Below are positions 24,796 to 54,900 of a stretch of 64,000 nucleotides of DNA, one piece after another. The DNA lies in NCBI RefSeq assembly GCF_026914265.1, contig NC_069125.1:20138966-20202965 (forward strand), written 5' to 3'. Under the pieces are notes generated by a model. It saw nothing but the letters and a program-made list of their open reading frames with translations. It did not search any database and was not told the origin of the DNA. The first letter of the stretch is position 1; every line of letters starts with the position of its first letter. This DNA is from Mya arenaria (taxonomy: Eukaryota; Mollusca; Bivalvia; Myida; Myidae). The translations under genes and the position numbers were made by a program.

Positions 24796-24911
24796 CTATA
24801 TAAAGTCATCATCGTCATCGGACGCGTTCTCTTCAGTATCAAGGTCGGGATCAGCGGGGTCAAGGACGACTTGGTCGTTGTCCCCTACGAGCTCAAGGTA
24901 ACCGGAAGTGT
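24796..24911 (-). other. NACHT-WD exon 34: acidic C-terminal tail
   Basis: The last exon encodes 38 residues rich in Asp and Glu, ending ENASDDDDDFI before TAG at 24798-24796. The final D-F-I fits a class III PDZ ligand pattern (acidic at -2, hydrophobic at 0). A partner is inference only. Confidence 0.75.
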
Positions 24912-27900: not shown

Positions 27901-30900
27901 ACTAGGGCACAATAAGGAGCGCTAGGGACACCGGGTGTGCTGGGAACACTAGGGGCACAATAAGGAGCGCTAGGGACACCGGGTGTGCTGGGAACACTAT
28001 TGGCACAATAAGGAGCGCTGGGGACACCGGGTGCGCTGGGAACACTATTGGCATAATAAGGATCGCCAGGGACACTGGGTGCGCTGGGAACACTAGGGGC
28101 ACAATAAGGAGCGCTAGGGACACCAGGTGCGCTGGGAACACTATTGATATAATAAGGAGCGCTAGGGATACCAGGTGCGCTGGGAACACTATTGGCATAA
28201 TAAGGAGCGCTAGGGACACCAGGTGCGCTGGGAACACTATTGGCATAATAAGGAGCGCTAGGGACACAAGGTGCGCTGGGAACACTATTGGCATAATAAG
28301 GAGCGCTAGGGACACCAGGTGCGCTGGGAACATTAGGGACACAATAAGGAGCGCCAGGGACACCAGGTGCGCTGGGAACACTATTGGCATAATAAGGAGC
28401 GCCAGGGACACCAGGTGCGCTGGGAACACTATTGGCATAATAAGGAGCGCTAGGGACACCCGGTGCGCTGGGAACACTAGGGGCACAATAAGGAGCGCAA
28501 GGGACCGGATGCGCTGGAAACACTAGGGACACAATAAGGAGCGCCAGGGACACAAGGTGCGCTGGGAACACTAAGGACACAATAAGGAGCGCCAGGGACA
28601 CCAGGTGCGCTGGGAACACTATTGGCATAATAAGGAGCGCCAGGGACACCAGGTGCGCTGGGAACACTATTGGCATAATAAGGAGCTGTAGGGACACCCG
28701 GTGCGCTGGGAACACTAGGGGCACAATAAGGAGCGCAAGGGACCGGATGCGCTGGAAACACTAGGGACACAATAAGGAGCGCCAGGGACAACGTGTGCGC
28801 TGGGAACACTAGGGACACAATCAGGAGCGCTGGGGACACTGGGTGCACTGGCAACACTAGGGGCAAAATAAGGGGCGTTAGGGACACCGGGTGCACTGGG
28901 TACACTAGGGGCACAATCAGGAACGCTGGGGACACCGGGTGAGTTCGGTGCACTTGTAGCCCCCAAAAAAAACTAATCAAGCTTGAATCATTGATTTTCA
29001 ACATAATGTGAAGACCGGTGGGATATCATTGGCTATTATTTGACTATATCTGTCTGAAACTTAAAAAGAATAAGAAAAATAACATGTGTATTCAAACCTA
29101 AAAGAATCTATGCGTGATTTGTTATGGTTGTAAATGAGCGGTTGTCATCTATGTAAGTAAATGTATATAAAGCAAAGAGATAGTATAAGGAACATATTAA
29201 CAATATTAAATAATTCTTATTGAATTTGCCCTACCCATTTTTGTATCCCACACTTCGAGAAATGAGTCTTCTTCCTGTCGTTTACTGCCCTTTGGAACCC
29301 CTGTAAAATTCGTATTTATTGTTAGCATTACCTTTCAAAGTATAATGCATAATTTCAAACACCAATGTTCGATAATTTACAGGCAGAAATGTACAAACAT
29401 GGTATTCAAAAATATATCATCTCATATTTTATCTATATTCATTCTTTTAAGCAAAAAACGGCTAGTTGTGCAATATTTCAGGAAACACACGAATAAACAC
29501 TAGCATATGTTTAAATATAACTACGCTAAAACTATGTTATGTAAATTCTGTAAGATCTCGATGAATAACATATATTTGTCTCCTTAAATTCGTTAAATAT
29601 CCAATTTCATATTAAAACAACGACCATTCCACTTGCCCATAAAGAAGAGACGTATTTTGGGAACGAACATGAGCGAACACTTGTGAATTATTTCAAGCAC
29701 ACAGAAAGAAAACCACACGAGGTCCGAACGGGTGGATTGAATAAAACAAAATGAAAGTACATGAGGAGGAAAGCGAAAGTTTCGTTCAAACAATGACTGA
29801 AAAGCGATTTCCCTGTAATGTAGAAGACTCGTTGTTTGAAGATATCCTCATAGATGAAAGATGAAAATATATCATAAAAAAGCGGACTTCAACTTTTACA
29901 GATGATAGCATAAGACCACAGGCTTGTTCCAATAAAGGTCTTAGATGTAAATGTGAACTTATCTTACTAAATTAGTTATTTTGAAGTGTATTGGTACAAT
30001 CTGAACAATGTTAAAGTTGAAAACGGAGTTGAAGATATGGACAAATTATCCTGTTGCCAACAGAAGCATTTCTACAGATTTAAGATTTTTGAATTTACGA
30101 CTAAGATCCTTCATTGACACAGGGCCAAACCCTCGAGACCGGTTTCACGAAAAATGTAAGACCAATCCAATTAGATAGTTGAAAAGTGATTGCTTAGTTA
30201 GATAAACGACACAGTGTCACACAGGTTTCTTTGTGAAACCTGCCTATGGCTTCACAAAAAACATCAACAGCATAACGAACTAAGCAAGTGATTTTCTGGC
30301 ACTTGATTGGACTGTTATTGTTTCTGTTTCTGCGTCTTAGATTTTACGTGCATTTGCTTCCAGCGATCTAAGTCATATATCTTACCTGGTATGAGACCTA
30401 GGGTAAAAATAGTGAAAAACACAAATATGTGCAATACATGTTAGTGTTGGGAGTTATAGCAACACCTAGTCAATTCAGGGGAAAAGTAACCTGCCTTTGT
30501 CATCCTCGAACAATAACTCTGGCAAATTATAAATATAAAATGGTTAATATAAGATATTGATAAATAAACATTGACATGATTATCAGTTTGTTTGTTTCCC
30601 ATGTTTAGTATTTGCTGTCCCGTGAGGTTATGTTTCACATGTTTAGTATTTGTTGTTCTGTGAGGTTATGTTTCCCATGTTTAGTATTTTTTGTCCTGTG
30701 AGGATGTGTTTCCCTCGTTTAGTATTTGTTGTCCCGTGAGGTTGTGTTTCCCTCGTTTAGTATTTGTTGTCCTGTGAGGATGTGTTTCCCTCGTTTAGTA
30801 TTTGTTGTCCCGTGAGGTTATGTTTCCCTCGTTTAGTATTTGTTGTCCTGTGAGGTTAAATTAACCTTGTTTAGTATTTGTTGTCCAGTAAGGTAATGTT

Positions 30901-33900
30901 TCCCTCATTTAGTATTTTTTGTCCAGTAAGGTAATGTTTCCCTCGTTTAGTATTTGCTGTCCTGTGAGGTAATGTTTCACATGTTTAGTATTTGTTGTCC
31001 TGTGAGGTAATGTTTCCCTTGTTTAGTATTTGCTGTCCCGTGATGCTATGTTTCCCATGTTTAGTGTTTGCTGTCCTGTGAGGTAATGTTTCCCTAGTAT
31101 AGTGTTTGCTGTCCTGTGAGGCTATGTTTGCCATGTGTAGTATTTGTTGTCTTGTGAGGCTATGTTTCCCATGGTAAGTATTTGTTGTCTTGGGAGGTAA
31201 TGTTTCCACTGTTTAGTACTTGTTGTCCTGTGAAGTTATGTTTCCCTCGTTTAGTATTTTATCCCGTGAGGTTATATTTCCCTCGTCTAGTATTTGTTGT
31301 CCTGTGAAGTTATGTTTCCCTCCTCTAGTACTTGCTGTCCTGTGAGGTTGTGTTTCACATGTTAAAGTATTGGCTGTCCTGTGAGGTAATGTTTCCCTCG
31401 TTTAGTACTTGTTGTCCCGTGAAGTTATGTTAACCTCGTTTAGTATTTGTTGTTCTGTGAGGTAATGTTTCCCTCGCCTAATATTTGTTGTCCTGTGAGG
31501 TTATGTTTCCCATGTTTATTATTTGTTGTCCTGTGCGGTTATGTTTACCTCTTAAAGTATTTTTGTCCCGTGAGGTTATGTTTCCCTCATTTAGTGTTTG
31601 TTGAACTGTGTCGTTATGTTTACCTCGTCTAGTATTTGTTGTCCTGTGTGGTTATGTTACCCTTGTCTAGTGTTTGTTGTCCCATGAGGCTATGTTTCCC
31701 TCATTTAGTATTTGTTGTCCTGTGAGGTTATGTTTCCCTCGTCTAGTATTTGTTGTCCTGTAAGGTTATATTTCCTTCGTTTAGTATTGGTTGTCCCGTG
31801 AGGTTTGTTTCCCTCTTTAGTATTTGTTGTCCTGTTGGGTTATGTTTCCCCCGTTTAGTATTTGTTGTTCTGTGAGGTTATGTGTCCCTCGTCTAGTATT
31901 TGTTGTCCCATGAGGTTATGTTTCCCATGTTAAGTATTTGTTGTCCCGTGAGGTTATGTTTCCCATGTTAAGTGTTTGTTGTCCTGGGACGTAATGTTTC
32001 CTTCATTTAGTATTTGATGTCCAGTGAGGTTATGTTTTCCCCGTTTAGTATTTGTTGTTCTATAAGGTTGTTTTTTTGTCCAGTGAGGTTGTGTTTTCCT
32101 CGTCTAGTATTTTTTGTCCTGTGAGGTTATGTTTTCCTCGTCTAGTATTTTTTGACCTGTGAGGCAATGTTTCCCTCGTATAGTTTTTTTTTGTCCTCTG
32201 AGGTTATGTTTTCCTCGTCTAGTAATTGTTGTCCTGTGAGGTTATGTTTCCCATGTTTAGTATTTGTTGTCCTGTGAGGTAATGTTTCCCTCGTTAAGTA
32301 TTTTTTGTACCGTGAGGTTATGTTTCCCTCGTTTAGTGCTTGTTGTCCTGTGTTGTTATGTTTTCCTCGTCTAGTATTTGTTGACATGTAAAGTTATATT
32401 TCCCTCGTCTATTATCTGTTGTCCCGTGGGGCTATGTTTCCCTCATTTAGTTTTTGTTGTCCTGTGAGGTCATGTTTCCCTCGTTTAGTATTTGTTGTCC
32501 TGTAAGGTTATGTTTTCCTCGTTTAGTATTTGTTGTCCCGTGAGGTTATGTTTCCCTCGTCTAGTATTTGTTGTCCTGTGAAGTTATGTTTCCCTCCTCT
32601 AGTACTTGCTGTCCTGTGAGGTTGTGTTTCACATGTTAAAGTATTGGCTGTCCTGTGAGGTAATGTTTCCCTCGTTTAGTATTTGTTGTCCCGTGAAGTT
32701 ATGTTAACCTCGTTTAGTATTTGTTGTTCTGTGAGGTAATGTTTCCCTCGCCTAATATTTGTTGTCCTGTGAGGTTATGTTTCCCTCGTTTAGTATTTTT
32801 TGTCCTGTGAGGTAATGTTTCCCTTGTTTAGTATTTGCTGTCCCGTGATGCTATGTTTCCCATGTTTAGTGTTTGCTGTCCTGTGAGGTAATGTTTCCCT
32901 AGTATAGTGTTTGTTGTCCTGTGAAATTATGTTTCCCTCGTTTAGTATTTTATCCCGTGAGGTTATATTTCCCTCGTCTAGTATTTGTTGTCCTGTGAAG
33001 TTATGTTTCCCTCCTCTAGTACTTGCTGTCCTGTGAGGTTGTGTTTCACATGTTAAAGTATTTGCTGTCCTGTGAGGTAATGTTTCCCTCGTTTAGTATT
33101 TGTTGTCCCGTGAAGTTATGTTAACCTCGTTTAGTATTTGTTGTTCTGTGAGGTAATGTTTCCCTCGCCTAATATTTGTTGTCCTGTGAGGTTATGTTTC
33201 CCATGTTTATTATTTGTTGTCCTGTGCGGTTATGTTTACCTCTTAAAGTATTTTTGTCCCGTGAAGTTATGTTTCCCTCATTTAGTGTTTGTTGAACTGT
33301 GTCGTTATGTTTACCTCGTCTAGTATTTGTTGTCCTGTGTGGTTATGTTACCCTTGTCTAGTGTTTGTTGTCCCATGAGGCTATGTTTCCCTCATTTAGT
33401 ATTTTTTGTCCTGTGAGGTTATGTTTCCCTCGTCTAGTATTTGTTGTCCTGTAAGGTTATATTTCATTCGTTTAGTATTGGTTGTCCCGTGAGGTTTGTT
33501 TCCCTCGTTTAGTATTTGTTGTCCTGTTGGGTTATGTTTCCCCCGTTTAGTATTTGTTGTTCTGTGAGGTTATGTGTCCCTCGTCTAGTATTTGTTGTCC
33601 CGTGAGGTTATGTTTCCCATGTTAAGTATTTGTTGTCCCGTGAGGTTAGGTTTCCCATGTTAAGTGTTTGTTGTCCTGGGACGTAATGTTTCCTTCATTT
33701 AGTATTTGATGTCCAGTGAGGTTATGTTTTCCCCGTTTAGTATTTGTTGTTCTATAAGGTTGTTTTTTGTCCAGTGAGGTTGTGTTTTCCTCGTCTAGTA
33801 TTTTTTGTCCTGTGAGGTTATGTTTTCCTCGTCTAGTATTTTTTGACCTGTGAGGCAATGTTTCCCTCGTATAGTATTTTTTTGTCCTCTGAGGTTATGT

Positions 33901-36900
33901 TTTCCTCGTCTAGTAATTGTTGTCCTGTGAGGTTATGTTTCCCATGTTTAGTATTTGTTGTCCTGTGAGGTAATGTTTCCCTCGTTTAGTATTTTTTGTA
34001 CCGTGAGGTTATGTTTCCCTCGTTTAGTGCTTGTTGTCCTGTGTTGTTATGTTTTCCTCGTCTAGTATTTGTTGACCTGTAAAGTTATATTTCCCTCGTC
34101 TATTATTTGTTGTCCCGTGGGGCTATGTTTCCCTCATTTAGTTTTTGTTGTCCTGTGAGGTCATGTTTCCCTCGTTTAGTATTTGTTGTCCTGTAAGGTT
34201 ATGTTTTCCTCGTTTAGTATTTGTTGTCCCGTGAGGTTATGTTTCCCTCGTCTAGTATTTGTTGTCCTGTGAGGTTATGTTTCCCTCGTCTAGTATTTGT
34301 TGTCCTGTAAGATTATGTTTTCCTCGTTTAGTATTTGTTGTCCTGTGAGGTAATGTTTCCCTCGTATAGTATTTGTTGTCCTGTGAGGTTATGTTTCCCT
34401 CATCTAGTATTTGTTGTCCTGTGATATTTATGTTTCCCTCGTTGAGTATTTAATGTCCTGTGAGGTAATGTTTCCCTCGTTTATTATTTGTTGTCCCATG
34501 AGGTAATGTTTCCCTCGTTTAGTATTTTTGTCCAGTGAGGTTATGTTTCCCTTGTTTATTCTTTTTTGTCCTGTTATATTATGTTTCCCTCGTTTAGTAT
34601 TTGTTGTCAAGTAAGGTTATGTTTCCCTCGTTTAGTATTTTTGTCCCGTGAGGTTTTGTTTAACTCGTTTAGTATTTGTTGTCCTGTGAGGTAAGTTTCC
34701 CTCATTTATTATTTGTTGTCCCATGAGGTTATGTTTCCCTCGTCTAGTATTTGTTGTCCTGTGAGGTTATGTTTTCCATGTTTAGTATTCGTTGTGCGTG
34801 CGGTTATGTTAACCTAGTTTAGTTTTTGTTGTCCTGTGAGGTAATGTTTCCCTCGTCTAATATTTGTTGTCCCATGAGGTTATGTTTCCCTCGCCTAGTA
34901 TTTGTTGTCCTGTGAGGTTATGTTTCCCATGTTAAGTATTCGTTGTCCAGTGCGGTTATGTTAACCTCGTTTAGTATTTGTTGTCCTGTGAGGTAATGTT
35001 TCCCTCGTCTAATATTTGTTGTCCTGTGAGGTTATGTTTCCCTCGTTTAGTATTTGTTGTCCCGTGAGGTTATGTTTCCCATGTTTAGTATTTGTTGTCC
35101 TATGAGGTAATGTTTCCCTCGTTTAGTTTTTTTTTGTTCTGTGAGGTTATGTTTCCCTCGTTTAGTATTTGTTGTCCTGTCAGGTTATCTTTCCCTCGTT
35201 TAATATTTGTTGTCCGGTGAGGTTATGTTCCCCTCGTTTAGTATTTGTTGTCCCGTGAGGTTATGTTTCCCATCTTTAGTATGTGTTGTCCTGGGACGTA
35301 ATGTTTCCCTCGTTAAGTATTTGTTGTCCTGGGAGGTAATGTTTCCCTCGTTAAGTATTTGTTGTCCAGTGAGGTTATGTTAACATCGTTTAATATTTGT
35401 TGTCTTGTGAGGTTATGTTAACCTCGTTTAGTATTTGTTGTCCAGTGAGGTTATGTTTCCCTCGTTTAGTATTGTTGTTCTGTGAGGTTGTTGTTTTTTG
35501 TCCCGTGAGGTTGTGTTTCCCTTGTTTAGTAATTGTTGTCCCGTGAGGTTGTATTTCCCTCGTTTAGTATTTGTTGTCAAGTGAGGTTATATTTCCCTCG
35601 TTTAGTATTTGTTGTCCTGTGAGGCTGTGTTTTCCTCGTTTAGTGTGTGTTGTCCTGTGATATTATGTTCCCTCGTTTAGTATTTGTTGTCCTGTGAGGC
35701 TGTGTTTCCCTCGTTTAGTGTGTGTTGTCCTGTGATATTATGTTCCCTCGTTTAGTATTTGTTGTCACGTGAGGTTATGTTTCCCTCGTTTAGTATTTGT
35801 TGTCAAGTAAGGTTATGTTTCTCTCAGTTAGTATTTTTGTCCCGTGAGGTTTTGTTTAACTCGTTTAGTATTTGTTGTCCTGTGAGGTAAGTTTCCCTCA
35901 TTTATTATTTGTTGTCCCATGAGGTTATGTTTCCCTCGTCTAGTATTTGTTGTCCTGTGAGGTTATGTTTCCCATGTTTAGTATTCGTTGTCCAGTGCGG
36001 TTATGTTAACCTCGTTTAGTATTTGTTGTTCTGTGATATTTATGTTTCCCTCGTTTAGTATTTGTTGTCCTGTGAGGTAATGTTTCCCTCGTTTAGTATT
36101 TGTTGTCCTGTGAGGTAATGTTTCCCTCGTTTAGTATTTTTGTCCCGTGAGGTTGTGTTTCCCTTGTTTAGTATTTTTGTCCTGTTATATTATGTTTCCC
36201 TCGTTTAGTATTTGTTGTCAAGTAAGGTTATGTTTCCCTCGTTTAGTATTTTTGTACAGTGAGGTTATGTTTCCCTTGTTTAGTATTTTTGTCCTGTTAT
36301 ATTATGTTTCCCTCGTTTAGTATTTGTTGTTAAGTAAGGTTATGTTTCCCTCAATTAGTATTTTTGTCCCGTGAGGTTTTGTTTAACTCGTTTAGTATTT
36401 GTTGTCCTGTGAGGTAAGTTTCCCTCATTTATTATTTGTTGTCCCATGAGGTAATGTTTCCCTCGTTTAGTATTTGTTGTCCTGTGAGGTAATGTTTCCC
36501 TCGTTTAGTATTTTTGTCCAGTGAGGTTATGTTTCCCTTGTTTATTATTTTTAGTCCTGTTATATTATGTTTCCCTCGTTTAGTATTTGTTGTCAAGTAA
36601 GGTTATGTTTCCCTCGTTTAGTATTTTTGTCCCGTGAGGTTTTGTTTAACTCGTTTAGTATTTGTTGTCCTGTGAGGTAAGTTTCCCTCATTTATTATTT
36701 GTTGTCCCATGAGGTTATGTTTCCCTCGTCTAGTATTCGTTGTCCTGTGAGGTTATGTTTCCCATGTTTAGTATTCGTTGTCCAGTGCGGTTATGTTAAT
36801 CTCGTTTAGTATTTGTTGTCCTGTGAGGTAATGTTTCCCTCGTCTAATATTTGTTGTCTCATGAGGTTATGTTTTCCTCGTCTAGTATTTGTTGTCCTGT

Positions 36901-39900
36901 GAGGTTATGTTTCCCATGTTTAGTATTCGTTGTCCAGTGCGGTTTTGTTAACCTCGTTTAGTATTTGTTGTCCTGTGAGGTAATGTTTCCCTCGTCTAAT
37001 ATTTGTTGTCCTTTGAGGTTATGTTTCCCTCGTTTAGTATTTGTTGTCCCGTGAGGTTATGTTTCCCATGTTTAGTATTTGTTGTCCTATGAGGTAATGT
37101 TTCCCTCGTATAGTTTTTTTGTCCTGTCAGGTTATGTTTCCCTCGTTAATATTTGTTGTCCTGTGAGGTTATGTTCCCCTCGTTAATATTTGTTGTCCTG
37201 TGAGGTTATGTTTCCCATCTTTAGTATGTGTTGTCCTGGGAGGTAATGTTTCCCTCGTTAAGTATTTGTTGTCCTGGGAAGTAATGTTTCCCTCGTTAAG
37301 TATTTGTTGTCCTGGGAGGTAATGTTTCCCTCGTTAAGTATTTGTTGTCAGGTGAGGTTATGTTAACATCGTTTAATATTTGTTGTCTTGTGAGGTTATG
37401 TTAACCTCGTTTAGTATTTGTTGTCCAGTGAGGTTATGTTTCCCTCGTTTAGTATTTGTTGTTCTGTGAGGTTGTTTTTTTTTGTCCCGTGAGGTTGTGT
37501 TTCCCTTTTTTAGTATTTGTTGTCCCGTGAGGTTGTGTTTCCCTCGTTTAGTATTTGTTGTCACGTGAGGTTATATTTCCCTCTTTTAGTATTTGTTGTC
37601 CTGTGAGGCTGTGTTTCCCTCGTTTAGTGTGTGTTGTCCTGTGATATTATGTTCCCTCGTTTAGTATTTGATGTCCTGTGAGGCTGTGTTTCCCTCGTTT
37701 AGTGTGTGTTGTCCTGTGATATTATGTTCCCTCGTTTAGTATTTGTTGTCACGTGAGGTTATGTTTCCCTCGTTTAGTATTTATTGTCCCGTGAGGTTAA
37801 GTTTCCCTCGTTTAGTATTTGTTGTTCAGTGAGGCTGTGTTTCCCTCGTTTAGTGTGTGTTGTCCTGTGATATTATGTTCCCTCGTTTAGTATGTGTTTG
37901 ACGTTGATTACTGAGCCTCTATTCAGGGACTTGGTAAAATTATATGCCACTAGACTTGTCCCCGTAGTTTCCGCTTTTTTTATACATCGTATACTTCTGC
38001 AGCTCGTATTGGTTTACTCCATTTCCCTCAAAGTTTTTTAAGTTAGCAAATCAAGAAGTTTCATTGTATTCGATTCAGTTTAAGGTGCATACGTTAAAAA
38101 TAACCTAAAGTGCTACAAATCCAAAATCCTGCAATACTAACAATAACAAATAATCCTAACTAGCTTAGCTATAAACATATACTGTGATCATCTGTAGCAA
38201 TCAAATTTTGATAAAGGCGAAATTATTTTCGGTTTGTCCATGAAAGCAATGCATCTTGAGAGACCTAATACGAAATAAGCATCCAAATCAACGTACATTG
38301 TATATTAGTAAATAATATTTTCTCAAAAATAACAAAATGCCAATCTAAATAATTACATAAAATTAAAACTCATTCAATAGTTTCCAATAAAACAACAATA
38401 CCTTCAACTTTAAACAGGACATATTTTCCATCCTCGCTAACGGCCACAGCGTCTTCATTGAGAAAAGGCGTACGTTTAGACCTGAACGTATGCAGGACTT
38501 TACTTTTGTTCACGTCAAATGCGATCACCTCACAGCCGTCCTCGCTCCAAGCAGCCACGATGTTTCCAGCAGCACTTGCCTGAAAAGTTCTGACAGTATA
38601 AATAAATATTTACTCCTCCAACAATTTTGCACATTGCAGCTTTATATATAAATTATAAAACTCTTCTTTACTCTTTATACCTGTGGGATATTGTCAATTA
38701 ATATTGAGTACAACATTCAACTAACAAAATACCGATGTAAGACTAAGCTCAAACTATTAATACAGTGTTTATATGATTATCCATTTCTGTTGAAAGGAAA
38801 TATAAAAAAACAAAACGCGCACACTTTTTTTTTAAGAAAAAAGAGTTTGATTGTTGTTAAAATCGAATGAGAAATATCGCACGCAAGTTTGTTGAAGTTG
38901 AGATGAATTATAATATCGTAATGCGAGCATCAAACAACAAGCAGGAAACTGTCCGTGGGATTAGATAGCCACACCATTTTATAACCATACGATGTGTTAA
39001 GGCACAAATGCTCCTGGGTGACTTACACATGCACCATCCAGCTTGTACTGTTGGCCAGATTGGAGAACACAGGATGTCTTGCCTGTCTGGAGGTTGTACG
39101 TCTTCACATTGTGGCGACCGGCGCTCAAGCATATCACCTCTATTAAATGGTGAGGGAAAAAATCTAATTACAAGTAACACATATTTTGAGAAGCACGTTT
39201 AATATGGGCAGGCATTAGGCAAACTCAGATTAGTATTTGCATGATCATGCATCCCATTTGCAGTGAATTAGGTTCAGCTAATACTTAAATGTATTCAAAT
39301 AATGTTTTATAACATGAATGACACGATCATTATTTACCATTGCGTTTATGGACAATTTCAAATCTCCATCTTGTGCTCGGCAAATATCCCTCCATTTCCT
39401 TGGTAACGCTGAGAGAGTCAAGATTGATGATCTTTAGTTTCTGTACAACGTCATGAACAACAATGATTTCTTCGTCGTTCAAAACTTCCATGTGAAATAT
39501 TGAACAGTCCTACAAGTATAGCATAAAACATATAACGTATAGTATGAAGCACGGATATTGGTCCTACAAGTATAGCATAACACACGGATATTGGTCCTAC
39601 AAGTATAGCATAACACACGGATATTGAACAGTCATATAAGTAAAGCATAACACACGCATATTGAACAGTCATACAAGTAAAGCATAACACACGGATATTG
39701 AACAGTCATACAAGTAAAGCATAAAACACGGATATTGAACAGTCATACAAGTAAAGCATAAAACACGGATATTGAACAGTCATACAAGTAAAGCATGAAA
39801 CACGGATATTGAACAGTCATACAAGTAAAGCATGAAACACGGATATTGAACAGTCATACAAGTAAAGCATAAAACACGGATATTGAACAGTCATACAAGT

Positions 39901-42900
39901 AAAGCATGAAACACGGATATTGAACAGTCATACAAGTAAAGCATAAAACACGGATATTGAACAGTCATACAAGTAAAGCATAAAATACGGATATTGAACA
40001 GTCATACAAGTAAAGCATAAAATACGGATATTGAACAGTCATACAAGTAAAGCATAAAACACGGATATTGAACAGTCCTACAAGTATAGCATAGCACACG
40101 GATATTAAACAGTCATAAAGTACAGTATAAAACACGGATATTGCACAATCCTACAAGTATAGCATGAAGCACGGATATTGGTCCTACAAGAATAGCATAA
40201 AACACGGATATTGAACAGTCCTACAAGTATAGCATGAAGCACGGATATTGGTCCTACAAGAATAGCATAAAACACGGATATTGAACAGTCCTACAAGTAT
40301 AGTATAAAACACGAATATTGAACAGTCCTACAAGTATAGTATAAAACACGGATATTGAACAGTCCTACAAGTATAGCATAAAACACGAATATTGAACAGT
40401 CCTACAAGTATAGTATAAAACACGGATATTGAACAGTCCTACAAGTTTAGCATAAAACACGGATATTGAACAGTCCTACAAGAATAGCATAAAACACGAA
40501 TATTGAACAGTCCTACAAGTATAGTATAAAACACGAATATTGAACAGTCCTACAAGTATAGCATAAAACACGGATATTGAACAGTCCTACAAGTTTAGCA
40601 TAAAACACGGATATTGAACAGTCCTACAAGTATAGTATAAAACACGAATATTGAACAGTCCTATAAGTATAGTATGAAGCACGGATATTGGTCCTACAAG
40701 TATAGCATGAAACACGGATATTGAACAGGTGTTATACTAACTTGGAAGAATATTATTTCTGGGATTGAATTTAAGTATAGCATGAAACACGGAAGTATAG
40801 CATATTGAACAGTCCGATAAGTATAGCATGAAACACGGATATTGAACAGGTTTTATACTAACTTGGAAGAATATTATTTCTGGGATTTATTTAACCAAAC
40901 TGTGCTTAAAAAGTTATGTTGGGAAACTGAACAAATTTCATAACCGATAGTCGAATGGACGTGGACAACCACACCATCGATCATCGAATCGAAAATCGGA
41001 AGTTTATTTCGATATCGAATATCAGTAAGAAAATATGAAAATATGATTATGTTTATTTGATTATTTCAACTTACCAACTCTCGCTCTTTCACAGAGCACT
41101 GCTTGAATACATCGTATATGAACAGAAACTGGCTATCGTTTTCTTTTGTCTTGAAACCAAACCCAACAGCGTAGCGAGAATTCTTCAGTGAACACAGTAT
41201 CCTGTACACGCAAGAGTATAAAGGCCATATGTATCACAGTTGCCATACAACAGCTTTATATATACGTTGTATAGAGAGGAGTAAGACAAGTCGCTTGTAT
41301 AATTGTTTCAAAAAAGCAAAACGAATAACTATATAATCAATTTTTCAAACTACACACTTTTAGATTCATTTTTAAATAAAAATAAATAATGTTATATCCG
41401 TACATGGATATGGTTATACCTGATTCTATTTCCGCCCATGGATATGGTTATACCTGATTCTATTTGCGTCCATGGATCTGGGTATACCTGATCCTATTCG
41501 CGTCAATGGATCTGGCTATACCTGATTCTATTTGCGTCCATGGATCTGGTTATACCTGATTCTATTTGCGTCAATGGATATGGGTATACCTGATTCTATT
41601 TGCGTCCATGGATCTGGGTATACCTGATTCTATTTGCGTCCATTTATCTGGTTATACCTGATTCTATTTGCGTCAATGGATCTGGTTATACCTGATTCTA
41701 TTTGCGTCCATGGATGTGGTTATACCTGATTCTATTTGCGACCATGGATGTGGTTATACCTGATTCTATTTGCGTCCATCCATGGATGTGGTTATACCTG
41801 ATTCTATTTGCGTCCATGGATCTGGGTATACCTGATTCTATTTGCGTCCATTTATCTGGTTATACCTGATTCTATTTGCGTCAATGGATCTGGTTATACC
41901 TGATTCTATTTGCGACCATGGATGTGGTTATACCTGATTCTATTTGCGACCATGGATGTGGTTATACCTGATTCTATTTGCGTCCATTTATCTGGTTATA
42001 CCTGATTCTATTTGCGTCAATGGATCTGGTTATACCTGATTCTATTTGCGACCATGGATGTGGTTATACCTGATTCTATTTGCGACCATGGATGTGGTTA
42101 TACCTGATTCTATTTGCGTCCATCCATGGATGTGGTTATACCTGATTCTATTTGCGTCCATGGATGTGGTTATACCTGATTCTATTTGCGTCCATGGATG
42201 TGGTTATACCTGATCCTATTTGCGTCCATGGATCTGGTTATACCTGATTCTATTTGCGACCATGGATGTGGTTATACCTGATTCTATTTGCGACCATGGA
42301 TGTGGTTATACCTGATTCTATTTGCGTCCATGGATCTGGTTATACCTGATTTTATTTGCGACCATGGATGTGGTTATACCTGATTCTATTTGGGTCCATG
42401 GATGTGGTTATACCCTATTCTATTTGCGTCCATGGATGTGGTTATACCCGATTCTATTTGCGACCATGGATGTGGTTATACCCGATTCTATTTGCGACCA
42501 TGGATGTGGTTATACCCGATTCTATTTGCGACCATGGATGTGGTTATACCTGATTCTATTTGCGACCATGGATGTGGTTACACCTGATTCTATTTGCGTC
42601 CATGGATGTGGTTACACCTGATTCTATTTGCGTCCATGGATGTGGTTATACCTGATTCTATTTGCGTCCATGGATGTGGTTATACCTGATTCTATTTGCG
42701 TCCATGGATGTGGTTATACCTGATTCTATTTGCGTTCATGGATGACTTGTGGTTATACCTGATTCTATTTGCGTCCATGGATGTGGTTATACCTGATTCT
42801 ATTTGCGTCCATGGATGTGGTTATACCTGATTCTATTTGCGTCCATGGATGACTTGTGGTTATACCTGATTCTATTTGCGTCCATGGATGTGGTTATACC

Positions 42901-45900
42901 TGTTATACCTGATTCTATTTGCATCCATGGATGTGGTTATACCTGATTCTATTTGCGTCCATGGATGACTTGTGGTTATACCTGATTCTATTTGCGTCCA
43001 TGGATGTGGTTATACCTGTTATACCTGATTCTATTTGCGTCCATGGATGTGGTTATACCTGATTCTATTTGCGTCCATGGATGTGGTTTGACTCATCTTT
43101 TGGACCTTTTTAGTTCTGTCCCAGACTCTGACAATCCAATCTTCAGCTGACGTTACAATTGTCTTCAGATCATTGGAACACACATTTTGCACATCCACCG
43201 GATGTTCCAACTCGTCGGAGATCTTGGAAGTCTTGCAATCAAGAAACTTGACAAAGGTGAAATTAGCAAAATAGAAAGTCTTCGAGTCATAAGCACAATG
43301 GAGACTTCTTGTGTAATCATTTGGATCACCTGAAATATTTTTGCTCTCAAGTAAGATATCAAATATCGGTACATGCATTGTTAAGATTGTGTAAGTTAAT
43401 GAGTAATAGTTGACATGTCCGTTCATCTAGTAAAATTAGTGCACCAAAAGCGATTTTCCTACAAAGTAAAACTAACTGAATCTCGATTAACTTATCAACA
43501 GGAACACCGAAGCGCTAACAAGAGTATATATAGACATATACCTTTGACAACATTGATCTTCTTGAACGTTCTGAAGTCAAACACGACAATGTCATTGTTG
43601 TAGACGTTGCTATAGATGAGGTGTTTCTCGTCGACAGTAAAGGCCAGCTCGTTCACCTCGTACTCTACCTCCTCTTCTATTTCTAGATCAGAAAAGAAGA
43701 TAAGTAATTAATTATTAAAATGTTTGCCATGAAATCATTCCACTGAGCGTGTTTAGTTCTGTATGAATGTCATTGCTCGACTAGACTTTTTTTGGTACGT
43801 AATAAACAAAATCTACAAGAATGATACATTTTGTCATAGATTCGCCTCTGTCCGTCAACGGCATCCACCGACGACGTTGTCATGCTATTCGACGCTTGAT
43901 AACTCTACTATATTTTCTCAGGATGGCTATATTTTTTTTATCTAGTTTGCACATGCTCTGCCAATTAACCCAAAAACTAAACATATACCTGCCACCATGT
44001 AATGACTATATAATTTTGGGGTGTTAAGAAATCATACAAAGTGCAAGGTATGAATTTCTTCTTTACATAAGAAATGTCAATAATTTTGTGTCAACGTAAA
44101 ATTACAATAACAAGGTTCTGAGTATCCGTGAGAGTTTCTTCATCTGTGAATATTCTGTAAACATGTGCGTGCATAATGCCTCTTAATCGCGACAGTTATA
44201 TGTATTTGCAAAAATGAATCAGTGTGTGCTTTTTTTATATAGTTTCTGCAAAATTTCGCGACATCCCCTCCTGACCCCTAGGAACTTTATAACCTAAAAA
44301 TGCTAAAGCTTTCCGTTAAACTGTATGTTCTGTTCTGTTCTGTTCTGTTCTGTTCTGTAAACATATGTATATTATTTCCAGAACTACTCAATAATTGTAT
44401 CCAATTGCCAACGGACTTTTACTCTAGTACAATACAGTACATGAGTATGTTTTTTATCTTTACTAAGTGCAGCGGGAAACGAAACCACGCGTGCACAGCA
44501 CGTACCATTAGCATACCCCTAATGTTTCAAGACTCCATGTAATATAGTTGTTGTTTTTTTGTTGTTGTTGTTTTTTTTTTTTTTGGGGGGGGGGGTTGAG
44601 CGACACAAGTCCAGAAATGCTACTTTTTGCTAATTCAAGGGTCATAACTGGTTTTACTAAGAGTGACGGGAAACGTAGTGAAACCCGGGGCACACTATTA
44701 CGTCACCCCATCAACCTTTTTCATGACTCCATGAACTGTCACTAGCCCTCTCATTTATTCTTGGTTCATCTAACATTTTACGAGAACTAAACATCGATTA
44801 TAAAACTTATATTTCATTACATGTATTGCAATTTGAAATCACGAATCCACAACACTCATGACCGGGGTATGAGACACTGGCCTACTTGTGAAGTCATATC
44901 GATTTTCAATCATTGTTCATTTCCTAAAATAAATACGGATCTACCGAATATGAAATATAGCCGTGCACTGACCGTGTAATTATAAACCTGTTACAGCCTC
45001 AACACATGGAAAATACAGATATAATACGACCGACATATATTGTCGGAAAGATGATAATAATCAGACCAGAACCTGCAGTAGAACATACCTTATATAACGA
45101 GACCAGAACTTTCAAGAGAACATACCGCATATAAGACCAGAACTCGTGGGAGAATATACCTGATATAACGAGACCAGAACTTTCAAGAGAACATACCGCA
45201 TATAAGACCAGAACTCTTGGGAGAATATATCATATATAAGATACCAACAAGCTACTTCACCAGTAAAAATTAAAGAGACAAAATGTGCATCACAGTCATG
45301 CAAGATCGAGTCTTAATAATAAACGGCCATTATTTCGTTATATGCAAAAAAGAGTTATCTTACTTGATTAATAAAGTAGTTTTGATAGTTGGAAACATAT
45401 GTTACAAGTTTCAATGCAATACATGATGTATTTGCTGAGATGTTGACATAACCACACGGTTACAAGCAAAATCTTAACCAGAATTTTTAAGACGAATAAT
45501 AAAGGGTCATAATTTGCATGTTATGTCGGTAAAAAGGAATACAAAGCTTATGTTTCAAATATTATATATAGAATTCGACAATAAACAAATATTGACTTGA
45601 CTTGACTTGACTTGAACACTTCAAGTTATTGCTGATATATTAAACTATATGCTTACATGCACAACCTTAATCAAAGTTGAATAATAAAGGCCCATAATTT
45701 GCATTATTTTCAGATCAGTGCTATCTTACTTCATTAATTAAAAAGGTTGGATAGTTGGAAACACATATCCAAAAATTGCAATGCATTATATGATGTACGA
45801 GATAATGACTTGAAGGTGCGTACATACAAAACTTCAACTAAGGTGTGACGCCGACGCAGACCCAGACGCTAGGGTGAGAAATATAGTAATTATTTTCGAT

Positions 45901-48900
45901 TAGTCGAGCTAATAACGAGTGATATTTAGTTTTCATACCATTATCTATGAATGGTTCAAATCCACGAAACAGATCGGAACATTGCTTCTTCCTTAGATCA
46001 ACGACAGCAAAGTACAACTGGTCCTTCGTCGTGACCGCCGCGAAATTTCTGGAACCTAAAATGAGAACATTTCAGCATGTTTTATCGTATGCCAACTAAT
46101 ATGCAGTGTTCATATTTTATTAAGATGCAGTTTACAAAAACAGTATACACAGGTAAAATAGGAGCGTAATGCCACACGACTCGAATTCTTTATTATTTTA
46201 CCTGCAGCAATACTCGGAAACTCAAACACCAGATCGCCTTCAGATTCAAAGCATTGGAAATCATGAATCGGCAATCCATTCATGAGGTCAAAGCCCTTTG
46301 TTGAAAGCCCTTCAAACACTATCAACACCGATTTGTTTTCTCCGCATAAACAGGACGGGTTGTCATCTGATATGGACTTTAAGTCGAACACTTTCTCTCC
46401 TTAGTAAATTGAAAAGAAGAATTAGAACATCTGCAGTTTAAAAAGTTGGAGGAGCACTTTTCGAGACTATTAGTTATATGCATAATATCCGAAATTGAAT
46501 ATTTTCCTTGTCAATACAAAAACAGTACAGTCGAAAAGTGTGTAAACAAATATCAGTAAGAGCTACATGGTATTTCATTGCTTTTCATGGGAAGAAAGAT
46601 TGCGATTCTTACCTGTAATAGCATTGCGGATCGTCAGTTTCTGATAGGTGTCTATGATCATATACGTATCATTGCAACAAAACCGCACCTTCGATATTTT
46701 GCCCAGGCCGTCATACATCTGTATCTGCTGCCCTGACTGAACGTTCCACAGCCTCACTGAGCCATCGTCCGAACCTTAAATGTAACAAGTATGAGACTAT
46801 TTTCGAGCTCTATGCAATACGCGTCTTCACATACAACGGTGTGAGTACATTCACTCATCATGCTTATTTTACATGATAATAGAAACACTTTACTATTAGT
46901 GGTATCAATTGTCCAATGTAGGCAATAAACAGCGTCTTATTCAGAATAATTGCATATGAAGTTCGATTCTGTTGAAATGTCCCACATATTAAACGTTTCA
47001 CAACAAGAAGTCTTAAATAAACAAAAAACCTACAAGAAAGGGCAACTTTGCTGTCTCGAGAAAGGTCCAGGGACAATATATCTCCCTTGTGTCCGGCCAT
47101 ACTGTGTATTAGCTGTCCGCCAGGCTGGGACAGTATCTTTTTATCTGGTAGAATTGTGGCTACTGTATGTTCTCGGCACGCCCGCAGAAACTCCCCTGTG
47201 TTCTGTTGGAGAAAAATGTGTATTGTCAACTAATACATATCCATACATAGGTGGAAACAAAGAAATGGAAATAATATGTTTCTTCTCAAACACAGAAGTC
47301 ATTAGGCAAAGAGGCATCAGCGAATGTAAACGGAACGTATCAAAGCAATCGAGATTAACAAACCTTGTTTTGGGGAAGTCTTCCAAGCATTTGAGGGATG
47401 AACTGGTTTGAATCATTGAATATTCCTTGCTGGGAAAGACGCAATGCATCGTAGACACTTTCAATGGCTTCGTCGTCTGGGAAAACCGTACGTGCAAGTG
47501 CTAGATCCTCCATTATAGACCTAGACAAGCAGCAGAAGTGGCATGAATGTAACATGATGAACGTGGTACTAGTATAACAAAATAACCATGGACGTTCAAC
47601 CATTAGCAATTCAACAAAACTTCTAACAATGCAGTTACCAAAGATTTGTCGCCTTCAGTTTGTCCATCAAAAAATCAAAATTGCAAAGAGATTCTTTTTT
47701 GGCCAAATCCTTTTGCGTTCCGTAACATCGGTGATATGGTAAGTTGTTCAGCTTTCTGAGGTTATAAGAACTGCCGAATTTGTTGGGCTGCTGTGACACG
47801 AGACGATCTGCTGAGCCTTTTTCGCCTTTAGCACTGACGTAGTCCTTCTTTACGCCTTATCATGATAATACGAAAAAAAACACACACATTAAGTTGTAGT
47901 CAATGATGCTAAAATAAATATGAATTTTGATATGCTTCGTTTTTTTATGAACACAGGAAACAAAATTTGAAACTTTTAACCGTTCTTTGAAAGAAGAGTG
48001 CTAGTTTTTTGTATTTCAAAAGAAGTTTTACATTGATTGTAAACTCTCAATCATAAAATTTCCTTTCCTAATATTTCAGTTAATTATATGTTTAAAACAA
48101 AGTCGCAATTAAAAGGATATATAGTTGTTTAGAAACATCAGCAGCTAAAAGAATTGCAGTGATACATTTTAAAACTGTTCATACCGGCCCATGTTCCTGC
48201 AAAGAAGGCTGCGAGTGAAGTGTGAAGTTTCTGGGTTACGTTCTCATCACCAAGGTAGCGATTCCTGGCAGCCTCGATGAATTGTCGATGGTACCAGTAC
48301 ATTACCTGGACGTTGTCGGCACCTCGGTCAACTAAATACAAAGACAAAATGAAAACAATGAAACACCTAGGTAAGCAATGTAAATTAGTTTGATATAAAA
48401 AAAACCACAATAATTGTTCATAGCATTTGTACCTAGGTATTCCTCAAGGTCAGCCCTCAGCCTGATGACCAGCATGGGTGGTAAGCGCCTTATGGGCGGG
48501 GTCCAGTACATGTATACGTCATTGAGCACCTCGTCGTCACATGACAGGATGTCCTCCAGCTCAGTCTCCGTCAGACCGGACCTAGCTATATATCGGGATA
48601 AACGAGATATGTAGTAATTAAGACTGGTTTCACATTATTCAGAAATGTGGATACTGGCATAAATACTCATTAAAATTAAAAAAAAAATAACAGTCGTAAA
48701 TATTTTTTTAGTTTTCTATGCACTAATCAGGAAGACCGACGAACACAAAGACAATATAACATATACACGTTTGAAACTTTTCAAGTGTGTTAACTTTATT
48801 TTTACAAATACATGTTCAAACCTTGCGCAGTTATAATGAAATACTAGCAGAACTAAGTTGAAACTTACAAATGGTCAGGTACCCGAGCGCATGTGAAACA

Positions 48901-51900
48901 AAGATTTTCCCGTGCATCACCTCCAAACGTTCAAAAAGTGTGTCGATACTTTTTCGGATGGAAGGCTCGAGAGCAGTGGTACCCTTTGTTGCAAAGCTGG
49001 TCCACATGCAAGCCTTGTCAAAGGACAGTTTCAAAAACAGCGGAGAAGGGCATTTCTTGCACATGTGCAGCAGCAGATTTTTTTGATCAGGGGTAAGGTT
49101 TCGCTTTTTTAATTTCAACCATTTGTCGATAATTTTCTCAAAGTCATCAGACGTTAGTGTCGGTATTTTAACTAAATTAGCATCTGCTCGTATTGTTGAC
49201 TGCAAAGGAACACAATGAACAACAAGATTTAACAAAATATGTTTTAAATCATAATACATGTACATGGATGCGTTTTGAGATTAACGTTTGAAATGTCCAT
49301 ACCAGTAAGTTCCCAGGGTATAAGTCTGCCCCTTACCTTTAATATTGGATACGCCTCAAACTGATTTTCCGGCAACGTTGACACAATGACTTTCACATTC
49401 GGTCGCAGTTTCATTGGTAGCCACTGGAGTTGCCTAGCATTGTGCGACGTGTCCAGTTGGTCAAGTGAGTCCAATAGAATAACCAACGGCCTGTCGTTGT
49501 TTGGGGAAAACAAGCTCAAAGCAAACTCATCTGTCAACATTCGGAGATCCTGTTAATGCAAACACACGATACATTGTTTTGATCCTGTCTCGTTCTTATT
49601 ATTTAATATAATTTTATAATTGTAGTTGGAAGTGGACCAGCTTATAAAGCGTAAATACGACCCACCTTTGAAACATCCGTGTCGATACCGTATGCTTTCC
49701 TTATTTGAGACGTGATACTGGTCAGAAGACCCACGATGCTGGAGCTGTCCGGGGTGGTTCCAATAAATCTGAAAACAGCCAAATAATGTATTCTCAACGA
49801 CTCGTGTATATCCTCATCCGTTGTTTGTTTTATTAACATAAATTAAAGAATAGTGATGCTATTAAAGAATAGTGATGCTATTAAAGAATAGTGATGCTAT
49901 TCTCTATTTAGATTGTTCTACGCTAAGTAAAATTTTAACGTAATTGTGATTTGTAATTGCTAGCTTCACAATATCAACAATAACACATACCTAAGAACTG
50001 TTGCGCATTTATTGTTTGTCCATTTGGCACAGCACTTGGCTGCCATGGCCATAATTGACGTTTTGCCTGTGCCCGACTCCCCAAAAAGAACAAAGGGTTC
50101 GTCGCCGAGGCCTTTCACATAATTCTCGATTTTCTAAAGAAAAAAGAATGGATGAATGGGATAAGAAGTGGAATCCAGATTTTTGCAAAAGCCTTTTTGT
50201 CCGCCAATCCTGTCGTTATGTTAGTACTTATACTGGTCGCAATGTGAAGGTTTAATCGAACAAGTTGTAATTAAATTAATGTCACTCACAACCTTCTTCC
50301 TGTCATCACTCAGATTATAGCAGTAGATCGAATATCTAGGTTTCTAACATACCATTGATACCAAATAGTGCATTTAAAAACAAATGCTTGCGGTGTATCT
50401 CAAACAAACAATTTGGATACAAAACTATTATATATATACCTTTAAAGTTTCTTCCCGTCCGTGGAATTGTTTGCACTTCTTTTGACAAAATTGTATGTGT
50501 TCAGTGATTTCCTTTGTAAGCGTATCATGACTTGCTGTTTTTGCATCCACAGCAGTTTTTATCAAAGCACACATCTTGGACACGAAGTCCTCCTTCATTT
50601 TGGCAAGATATTTCTTGTGCTCTGGACTATTTGGGTTAATACCTGAAAATGATCAATGAAAACAACATGTGAAGGACTTTCGTTTTTTTGTGTGGTCACT
50701 TTGTTAAAAAATTCATTTTGTAATTGGTTCTTTCCATATTTTTATTTTGAGAAAATAAAAAATACCCTTTTCTTTATCCCATTTTACTGTGTAATCCAGT
50801 ATGTTGTCCCCCAGTTTCGACTTCATTTCCTCTTTTAAAGGAATCTGCATTTCTCGAATCTTTTGGAGCTTCCTCTCAGAATTGCTGTATGAGCACTCTA
50901 TTGTCATTATGAAAATAGCATATATACATGGTAGTTTTCCTGTGTTGTTACATGCAGTAAGCCATGCAGGTGAATACATTTTAATTGCAAATAAATAAAT
51001 GAATAAATGGCAAAAAAATCCTTATTTTCTGATTATTTTAGCTTAATTTATTCCACAGAAGTTCGACTTTATTATGGAAGTCGACAGCTATAAAAAAAAA
51101 AGGTTAAAGCGCCCACAACAAACTGACCCAGCATGTCGAGCACAAACTCCACCCACCTATAAACCTAGACAGGAGGAAGTTGCTCTCCTGGTCGCCGATG
51201 TCCTCGATGGTCCTGTGTATCCAGAGACACGTGTTACCAAGCTCGGAGACAGTAAGAAGACCACTGTGTACCTCCGTCTCCGTGACTGGGTGAAATGATT
51301 GAAATCTAGTATACTAATGTATCATCATTATACAGTACACTTATATTAGGATACACTTAGGTTAGGTATTTAACATGACAACGTTATGCAATGACAACCC
51401 GGGAGCATTTTGACTTCATGGTATTCTTGGTTCACCTTCCACTGCAGTACAAGAGATCACGACTCGAGACTAGACAGATGGATGATTGTAACGATCCTTC
51501 TGTTGTGTCCTAACTTGGCTGCTGAATGTTGGACATGCACAAAAACATCGGTAAATCAAGCATATTATGTGTCATGGTGCACTATATTCACTCCAATTTG
51601 CAACCATTGAATACCCAAAGTCCATTTCATTAGCTACATTGAAACAGGGTATGAACTAAGGTAACAGGGGCGCTAACGATCCACTTCTCTAATGGATATT
51701 GAAAAAAACTGATAGAAAGAAACAATCCAGCTTTGTAAAAGATTAAAAGTGAGTCAACTCTTCTATACAAATATCAAATAAAATTCAACATGGAATCTTT
51801 TACGTACATGATTGCTCTTTAAAACTGTATCTCATTTTTTTGTCAATTAAAAACTTGAATGTTTATATTGAAACGAAGGAGCTTAACATACATAAACAGT

Positions 51901-54900
51901 CAAAAAGAAATTGAATAACTTTCCTCATGAGCGATTTATAAAAATATCTGAGATAGAGATTTAGAGTTCATAGTCTTGACATTGGCTGTGCGGACTTCAG
52001 ATGCATTGCTTGGAAGATAAGAAATGTTTTTATCAGTATATCACTGTAATTTTGAACATTTCAATAACTTTCCTTTTCCATTAATGTATGTTTTCAAAAA
52101 CAAGGAACAAGGTGATACAGAAGGCTATCCCGTCAAGGTGATACAGAAGGCTGTCCCGTCAAGGTGATACAGAAGGCTGTCCCGTCAAGGTGATACAGAA
52201 GGCTGTCCCGTCAAGGTGATAGGCTGTCCCGTCAAGCTGATACAGAAGGCTATCCCGTCAAGCTGATACAGAAGGCTATCCCGTCAAGCTGATACAGAAG
52301 GCTACCCCGTCAAGGTGATACAGAAGGCTACCCCGTCAAGGTGATACAGAAGGCTATCCCGTCAAGCTGATACAGAAGGCTATCCCGTCAAGGTGATACA
52401 GAAGGCTATCCCGTCAAGCTGATACAGAAGGCTATCCCGTCAAGCTGATACAGAAGACTATCCCGTCAAGCTGATACAGAAGGCTATCCCGTCAAGGTGA
52501 TACAGAAGGCTGTCCCGTCAAGGTGATACAGAAGGCTATCCCGTCAATGTGATACAGAAGGCTATCCCGTCAAGGTGATACAGAAGGCTATCCCGTCAAG
52601 GTTATACAGAAGGCTATCCCGTCAAGGTGATACAGAAGGCTATCCCGTCAAGGTTATACATAAGGCTATCCCGTCAAGGTGATACAGAAGGCTATCCCGT
52701 CAAGGTGATACAGAAGGCTATCCCGTCCCCTTTATACCGATACCATTCCCATGTATTTATCTACTCAATAAAATGTCCATGAATTTCGCGTACCTAAACT
52801 GGGGGGGGGGGGGGGTCCTGGTCAATCCCAAGTTAATTAAACTTCATGTAAAATGTAAAGCAGCTCTTTTCGCAGTTCTCTACTTGATAGTTTAAACTTA
52901 CTGGAGCGGATATATTTGCGAGCAGTTTCCGCGTCAAACACCTCCTGGGCTACATTCTCCAATGTCTCCTGTATTACCTCGCTCTCCTCCCACCATACTT
53001 TCTTCGCGGCGTCCTTTTTGTCCTACAGTAATAAAATAAACCAATTTTGAAAATGCAGGTTGACCTGACTGACATTGAACGCAACACCCTCAAGCCCAAC
53101 AAAGAGTATTGAATCTAGTCTGTTTAACATTATTATGCAATTATATACTATATACTAGAATTCATATCTCTGACATTCTAACTGGGCTTTTATTCTTTTC
53201 CACCTTAATCACTTATACTTATCCATATATAAGATTCGAAAAAAAACTATGCGATATTGAGTACCTTAACAGTACTGAGGAAGTCTGGCAAGTGAATGCT
53301 GATAGGGAACGCCACATATACCGGAGGGTCCGCATTCAGGTCCTTCGCATACCATCTATTTCAACACGTACATAATTAAATATATTCATGTCATCACAAA
53401 CATCATGCATTGCGAGATAACTATATCATAGACAAATATAGTGTTTTCAGTCACAGCATGTTCTATTATTATTGCCGATAGTGTCGCTCGTCATACGTTG
53501 AAGTCAATGGAAACAGAATGGACATCTTCTTGAAATGATAAGAAAAGTTAAATATAAAGTGAAAATACAAACATGGCCCTTACTTCTTAAACAGTTTCTT
53601 CGTTTCATCAGAATCAACGTTCTGCATGATGGTCTCAAATTCTGCGGCTTCGATTGTCCTCGGGAAATCTTTGTAACCGTATTTATGAGACATTAAGGAC
53701 TGAAATATATTACTGAGAAGATTACCTTCTATTGGAATGTATATAATGTGAATGGGACCACCAACACTAAATATTGAGTGGAGGAAATTGATACATGTAC
53801 AAAAGATTTATTTTAAGAATCATGAAAATGTACTAGTAATAGAAAATAGAAATTGAAAACAGACATGGGCCCGATTTCACAAAGAAGCTGCAAGTCGTAT
53901 ATTAACACTCCTACTGCGCTTACTAAGATGAATCATTTCACTTGCATTCATATTCCAATTAACGAAAATTCTTCGGAAACTGTCTAACAGTACACAAACG
54001 ACCCTTGTGATTGGTCAAGAGACATTTAATGGTTGTTAAGATGTAGGATACATCTATGAATAAAGTGACGTCAATGACGAACAACCGAATCCATACTACT
54101 TTAAATTGTCTTGTAAGTCTTTCTCACAAACCGTGCGACGACAAAATGTTTCCACAGGGATGATCCGCAATACATAAACATTCAACGGACTAAGCATGAA
54201 TTTTAATGGAATGTTATTATGATCGCCTATTTTTTCAGGTGGGAAAATATTTCTTGTCTCAAGATTGTTCGTGCAGACTTGCCCCTGGTCTTGGTGAAAC
54301 AAATATGAGACCAATGATGGGTGCCAAGCCCTATTAAAAACTTTTGAAAATACACAGAAGACGTCTCTAAATTCTAATCCTTCGTCAAGAGCTTGACACA
54401 ATGAATGAAAGACGAATGCTATTTGGTTGAGAGTCGAGCCGTATTTGAAGCTTCGTTAGAGCTTTGTTCTGCAAAAGGAAGTTTAAGACGTGTTTGCGGG
54501 TTACTATTTCGAGAACTGTGCTGACGACACCTTAAAGAGAGACAGGTTTGTGGTTTTCCATAACCCTTAAGATCATTTTTCTTGAAGATGGCACAGACAT
54601 GCGCAAGTTCCCGCTGGTGTTGGGGCATGTACTACATTACCACTTCAATAATTATATAGTCGGAACGGCTAGACGGTAAAAGTTAAAACCGTACAAAGTG
54701 AACAGGTATGTAATCATTACGTCTTCGTAAGAATTAGTACTTACCACGAATGAAGGTCCAGTAGAAACGTTCTGACTGTTACGAATCTCCCTGATACAGA
54801 TATCGGTGCCCATGTGGTCGTCTGTGGCCTGGTCCCGGATGCCCCATCGCATGTCTACCACCTGGAAGTCGTACCCTAGTCCCTGGCAGAACTTCTTAAC

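Follow-up and report, generated by a model that had tools for sequence, protein, structure and literature searches.

A splice donor multiplied by an intronic 34-bp minisatellite in an NWD1-like gene of Mya arenaria

Intron 25 of the NWD1-like gene LOC128231374 of Mya arenaria raises the question of how an exon end is chosen when its splice donor is followed by 49 further copies of itself, and whether these copies serve the gene. The window, i.e., the whole stretch of DNA analysed, comprised 64,000 nucleotides (nt) of contig NC_069125.1 (assembly GCF_026914265.1, positions 20,138,966 to 20,202,965), and its own coordinates are used below. The gene is immune-receptor-like. Exact spliced alignment placed the annotated protein P0001 in 34 coding exons of the minus strand, which run from 58893 to 24799 (24799..58893, start codon to last sense codon) and encode a full-length product of 1809 amino acids. 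Coding exon 25 (43059..43329, minus strand, 271 nt, phase 2 at its end) was recovered at 43329-43059, where a previous interpretation made from the letters of the window (hereafter, the sequence-only reading) had placed it. Its donor reads aatcag|GTATAACC, with the authentic GT at 43057..43058 on the minus strand, and the alignment resumes at 41201 with exon 26 (41075..41201, minus strand, 127 nt). The introns before and after exon 25 are 212 and 1857 nt long.

The multiplication of the exon-end donor into intron 25 was confirmed. Tandem Repeats Finder (TRF) called a 34-bp unit in 48.5 copies, or about 49 units, at 41399-43088 (41399..43088, minus strand). Direct parsing for the donor word GGT[AG]TA, a pattern that itself demands GT, yielded 50 words from 43058 to 41419, and no word was missing along the array. 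The first word is the real donor and the remaining 49 (43024 to 41419) are decoys, in agreement with the earlier estimate of about 49 copies. The 49 spacings between words were 34 nt in 42 cases, 39 nt in three, 38 nt in two, and 9 nt in two. Counted from the first donor to the array end, the array takes up 1660 of the 1857 nt of the intron. The unit consists of 30 nt of exon 25 followed by GTAT, so that it straddles the exon-intron boundary. Its exonic part in the founder copy (43059..43088, minus strand) comprises one base, the codons for TTSMDANRI, and two bases, and these final 30 coding bases (43088-43059) match the commonest unit exactly; the exon end had rightly been assigned to the first unit, with about 28 bases instead of 30. 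The 9-mer of the real donor, CAGGTATAA, is common to 39 of the 50 donors, which bears out the earlier description of dozens of near-equal competing sites. When two units were used as the query of a whole-genome DNA search, 24 matches were returned, every one of them at this locus; as the tool passes over very common words and scored a single candidate region, scarcer or diverged copies may exist at other places.

Since tandem arrays assemble poorly and one assembly was examined, the array, or its number of copies, might be an assembly error. Almost no weight is given to this explanation: the Mya reference, to which the window presumably belongs, is described as built from PacBio long reads (PMC10663159, available text), and the differences between units are ordered, with nested longer repeats.

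Each of the 50 donors was spliced to exon 26 by script. Donor 1 gave the full protein and was the sole donor to keep the reading frame open, and all 49 decoys gave an identical premature stop at codon 1401. This stop, an in-frame TAG in unit 2 (43031..43033, minus strand), is the ninth codon past split codon 1392 (RYNHIHGRK*), and because all longer products are read through this unit, the outcome is always the same. The sequence-only reading had foreseen the TAG, at about 11 codons, and had called the extra donors mostly unproductive, which proved true of every one of them. Two annotated Mya proteins, P0001 and P0002, both join exon 25 to exon 26 at donor 1 and use the last acceptor. The published annotation, from which P0002 presumably comes, is reported to have drawn on RNA sequencing (RNA-seq) from six tissues (PMC10663159, available text).

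It is quite likely that the array is a mirage minisatellite, that its outermost donor wins by exon definition, and that random minisatellite births produced it as a tolerated by-product. A 34-bp segment spanning the exon 25 donor and the 3'-terminal exon bases before it would have been duplicated in tandem, with the copies accumulating in intron 25. The outermost copy would still be the real exon end and donor, and the remainder intronic decoys. Exon 25 would be recognised across the exon, and among equal donors the one nearest its acceptor would win, because an exon with a 212-nt intron upstream and a 1857-nt intron downstream is expected to be exon-defined. A slip to any decoy would meet the same early stop and the transcript would probably be degraded. 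In a gene with many junctions, random minisatellite births would then leave such an array behind, presumably without cost or benefit. We infer exon definition as the reason for the use of donor 1 by analogy with human data: in exon-defined minigenes with two identical strong donors, the upstream donor is reported to be used exclusively (PMC9225289). The same source, in its available text, places the switch between definition modes at introns of some 250 nt and describes a heightened preference for upstream donors in the class with a short upstream and a long downstream intron (PMC9225289).

Several points weigh against this explanation. The rule on exon and intron definition comes from human data, and in human events unfiltered for equal strength about 60% are reported to prefer the downstream donor (PMC9225289). 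Intron definition may be usual in LOC128231374, because 15 of its 33 introns are shorter than 250 nt. Annotation pipelines may simply pick an open frame, which would account for donor 1 in the annotated proteins. Moreover, several differences separate P0002 from P0001, one of them an exon 26 that lacks 36 nt at its end, and P0002 was therefore not relied on heavily. Exon 25, at 271 nt, has a rather weak donor, and in human minigenes with both donors weak the larger exons are reported to be mostly skipped (PMC9225289), a possible source of difficulty for exon 25. Finally, by a generic donor matrix, seven decoys score above the real donor and four below.

The same donor strengths enter into the idea that the array acts as a splicing rheostat, under which part of the transcripts would take decoys, end at codon 1401, and decay, the level of the NWD1-like protein being set by array length. 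By the generic matrix the real donor ranks only 27th of the 33 donors of the gene and is outscored by the seven decoys mentioned, though it ranks 16th with a matrix built from the gene's own donors. GT is kept in 49 of 49 decoys, all leading to the same stop, and with the 9-mer shared by most donors this would suit a rheostat. Donor 1, however, is the one used in both annotated proteins, and normal splicing is reported or suggested for the amphioxus precedents (PMC3087553, PMC3902484, available text). Nor are the donor positions specially conserved. Among the 42 units with the exact 34-nt length, variable sites made up 4 of 9 positions in the donor and 11 of 25 elsewhere. The chance that two random positions are both invariant is 0.31, so the intact GT is unremarkable. 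Selection on donor words was thus rejected as unsupported, the donor positions being no less variable than the others; GT is intact in 50 of 50 donors, and selection could explain that too, which again counts against a neutral array. Given these points, a rheostat appears improbable, and regulation of LOC128231374 by array copy number, as the sequence-only reading had suggested, is unlikely and found no support.

A further functional proposal, that the donor array is a docking platform for the U1 small nuclear ribonucleoprotein and, for example, shields a long intron from premature polyadenylation, has a very slim chance of being right. It would draw on 50 words complementary to U1 within 1.66 kb, and the predicted U1 duplex of the common donor word is moderate, at −7.2 kcal/mol. 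Against it, the neighbouring intron has an acceptor array instead, and the lack of special conservation in the donor words applies here as well.

The source of the unit was sought in orthologues, using the first 43 of 120 listed protein matches (174 in total), two of the 43 being Mya proteins. In the proteins of Dreissena, Mercenaria, Ruditapes, and Mactra (P0003-P0006), the closest among the matches listed, the junction aligned without gaps, and SQTxxxxANRIR was retained in three of the four. The coding sequence is thus older than the array, because these proteins align gap-free through the junction, and by this comparison the array was born from exon 25's own end. Units identical to the exon copy numbered 12 of 47 overall, with nine among the first 15 and one among the last 15. 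Divergence from the exon copy climbed with distance (rho 0.63 for 42 units of 30 nt, 0.38 for all 47), the units not being independent.

The array could also be a stage in the making of an intron from exon duplications that bear AG|GT, a model on record in the literature (PMC3087553, available text). CAG|GT is present in 46 of the 50 donor words, as that model would have it. However, the acceptor of intron 25 (cgtgtacag) sits 197 nt past the array and is not a copy of the unit, and no pyrimidine tract was seen by eye before the CAG in the units. Nothing points to a new intron, because the closest orthologue proteins align through the site without extra residues. Intron birth is accordingly regarded as very unlikely.

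A second array, absent from the sequence-only reading, was found in intron 26. It holds 32 extra copies of the exon 27 acceptor in a 37-bp unit (39563..40814, minus strand; TRF and junction scan), and its founder is the acceptor together with the first bases of coding exon 27 (GACTGTTCAATAT; 39338..39509, minus strand). AG was kept in 19 of the 32 extra acceptors and lost in 13, 12 of which have TAT for TAG; the units with this change form a block of 12 at 40040-39633. All 19 AG-bearing copies lead to early stops if spliced to. Divergence ran in the opposite direction to that of intron 25 (rho −0.41, units again not independent). Exon 26 is thus flanked by facing arrays, of donors in intron 25 and of acceptors in intron 26. 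The introns around exon 27 are 1565 nt upstream and 198 nt downstream, and the human class with a long upstream and a short downstream intron is reported to mimic exon definition for acceptors (PMC9225289, available text). If clams follow the human rule, these flanking intron lengths would favour the authentic, outermost sites of both exons 25 and 27.

Whether a special mechanism gives birth to such arrays was judged by their number. A scan of 33 donors and 33 acceptors against the whole window returned two multiplied junctions, the exon 25 donor and the exon 27 acceptor, and one stray second match to the exon 12 acceptor. With six minisatellites in the gene, 66 junctions, and random births, 0.66 junction-straddling founders were expected and two were seen (P for two or more, 0.14); adding two smaller arrays (56580-56775 and 49842-49901) raised the expectation to 0.79 and P to 0.19. 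A special origin of junction arrays was rejected, as the excess over chance was not significant by either count, and with two arrays against 0.66 expected no special birth mechanism is needed.

The two arrays could together form a length-dependent switch around exon 26, and such arrays may be frequent and so far unreported in bivalve genomes, but this is improbable. Intron 25 stripped of its array would measure about 197 nt and would probably be intron-defined; with short arrays, decoys and early stops would then be favoured, and long arrays would bring about exon definition and restore the first donor. Were the switch real, the risk would drop with copy number. Exon definition by the human rule also suggests that small arrays would be the dangerous ones, a dependence of opposite sign to that implied by the sequence-only reading.

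A third junction array in the window lies in a TMEM120-like gene on the plus strand (12852..13148; TRF, 85-bp unit) and comprises three copies of an acceptor and exon start. The exon starts are at 12907, 12992, and 13077, and the last alone is open as far as the donor. The gene is presumably TMEM120-like, a name given on a Pfam match under the curated cut-off (E 0.00075) and on sequence motifs.

Elsewhere in the genome, 17 distinct CAGGTAAGT arrays were fetched among those listed. Exon ends were recognised in two of these 17, one in a cathepsin-L-like gene (L047) and one in an MBOAT gene (L048), where the joined exons gave Pfam matches across the junction (E 3.7e-21 and 2.5e-24, respectively). 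The arrays contain 42 and 37 copies, the real one included, and the decoys that keep GT lead to early stops in 39 of 39 cases in L047 and 36 of 36 in L048. In the cathepsin array, 29 of the 42 copies read CAA|GTAAGT, the real donor being CAG|GTAAGT. Another two of the 17 (L051 and L052) are a paralogous pair with open frames and no Pfam family; they are about 140 kb apart on C11, each with a 47-bp donor array (TRF, 24 and 33 copies) after an open frame. For the remaining 13 of the 17 no exon evidence was found, L049 and L054 among these falling outside the script's assessment. A genome-wide excess of donor arrays was considered and rejected, as comparison with reversed patterns was inconsistent: three nearby copies of CAGGTAAGT occurred at 208 places and of its reversal at 359, and for AAGGTAAGT the respective figures were 577 and 220, many of the AAGGTAAGT matches listed coming from one array on C4. 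Polarity of divergence was likewise rejected as a general rule, with rho of 0.63 in intron 25, 0.51 in the cathepsin array, and 0.42 in the MBOAT array, but 0.09 in L051 and −0.41 in intron 26; L052 was left out of this comparison because of a wrong anchor.

Other repeats were noted in the window. Intron 30 of LOC128231374 holds a 48-bp array of 34 copies (27264-28941) whose minus strand is open for up to 498 codons, with SAPGVPSAPYYANSVP-like repeats; it lies outside the annotated protein, and the openness may be due to chance, as the unit length is divisible by three. Intron 29 (9.1 kb) consists largely of 38-bp repeats, about 7.3 kb in total (30593-37898), in which the junction scan found no splice-junction copy. 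The segments 59343-59890 and 60370-60917, 1027 bp apart, have identical sets of reading frames, which suggests a recent tandem duplication.

The array provides a natural experiment in splice-site choice, with 39 of 50 donors identical over the 9-mer, placed mostly in 34-nt steps, and one of them useful. A single gene could thus distinguish a win of the outermost donor, as under exon definition, from a win of the donor nearest the acceptor, as under intron definition. In poison exons and other splicing coupled to nonsense-mediated decay, the alternative outcome is an early stop and the cases rest on measured isoforms; the Mya decoys share the early stop, and their outcome was computed from the genomic sequence.

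Among human intronic variable-number tandem repeats (VNTRs) tied to splicing are those of ABCA7 and TERT, the latter (VNTR6-1) with a 38-bp unit in 24-66 repeats (PMC5954066, PMC11830802). VNTR6-1 resembles the Mya array in unit and copy number, and both are intronic minisatellites. In the human cases the effect on splicing rests on human data, and the available text of these papers makes no mention of an exon's own splice site in the unit. In intron gain by tandem AGGT duplication (PMC4974935, and Zhuo 2007 through its citation in PMC3087553; available text), the duplicated units carry AG|GT, as do those of the Mya array. In that process both splice sites lie in the duplicated unit, whereas intron 25 has its acceptor outside the unit and shows no sign of newness.

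The closest likeness is to amphioxus, where repeats across exon-intron boundaries were described in Adh3 and named mirages (PMC3087553). According to the available text of that paper, the globins BflGb6 and BflGb9 also have mirages, and Adh3 data together with reverse transcription PCR (RT-PCR) suggested undisturbed splicing. A paper that describes similar repeats in PGBD5 also cites troponin C (PMC3902484). As far as these descriptions go, the amphioxus mirages, like the Mya array, are tandem repeats over an exon-intron boundary, at its 5' or 3' edge, and many of their units retain AG/GT signals. Mirages are also marked by unstable length between haplotypes or in the soma, and by concerted evolution within the cluster that weakens at the edge; on the latter point, divergence from the exon copy rose with distance in intron 25 and took the opposite trend in intron 26. 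The open-licence literature, as far as its available text extends, yielded no mirage in bivalves. By its sequence, the Mya array is probably a mirage minisatellite, a known kind of element in a new, bivalve case. It differs from the amphioxus examples in lying in a bivalve NWD1-like gene, in its size (about 49 units, against 3 and 6 in BflGb6, by the available text), and in being followed by an acceptor array in the next intron. Mirages would thereby be extended from cephalochordates to a bivalve. With several in one bivalve genome, minisatellites that straddle junctions may be a general, tolerated route of intron lengthening, and the Mya case stands out beside the amphioxus ones as large, paired in consecutive introns, and recurrent within the genome.

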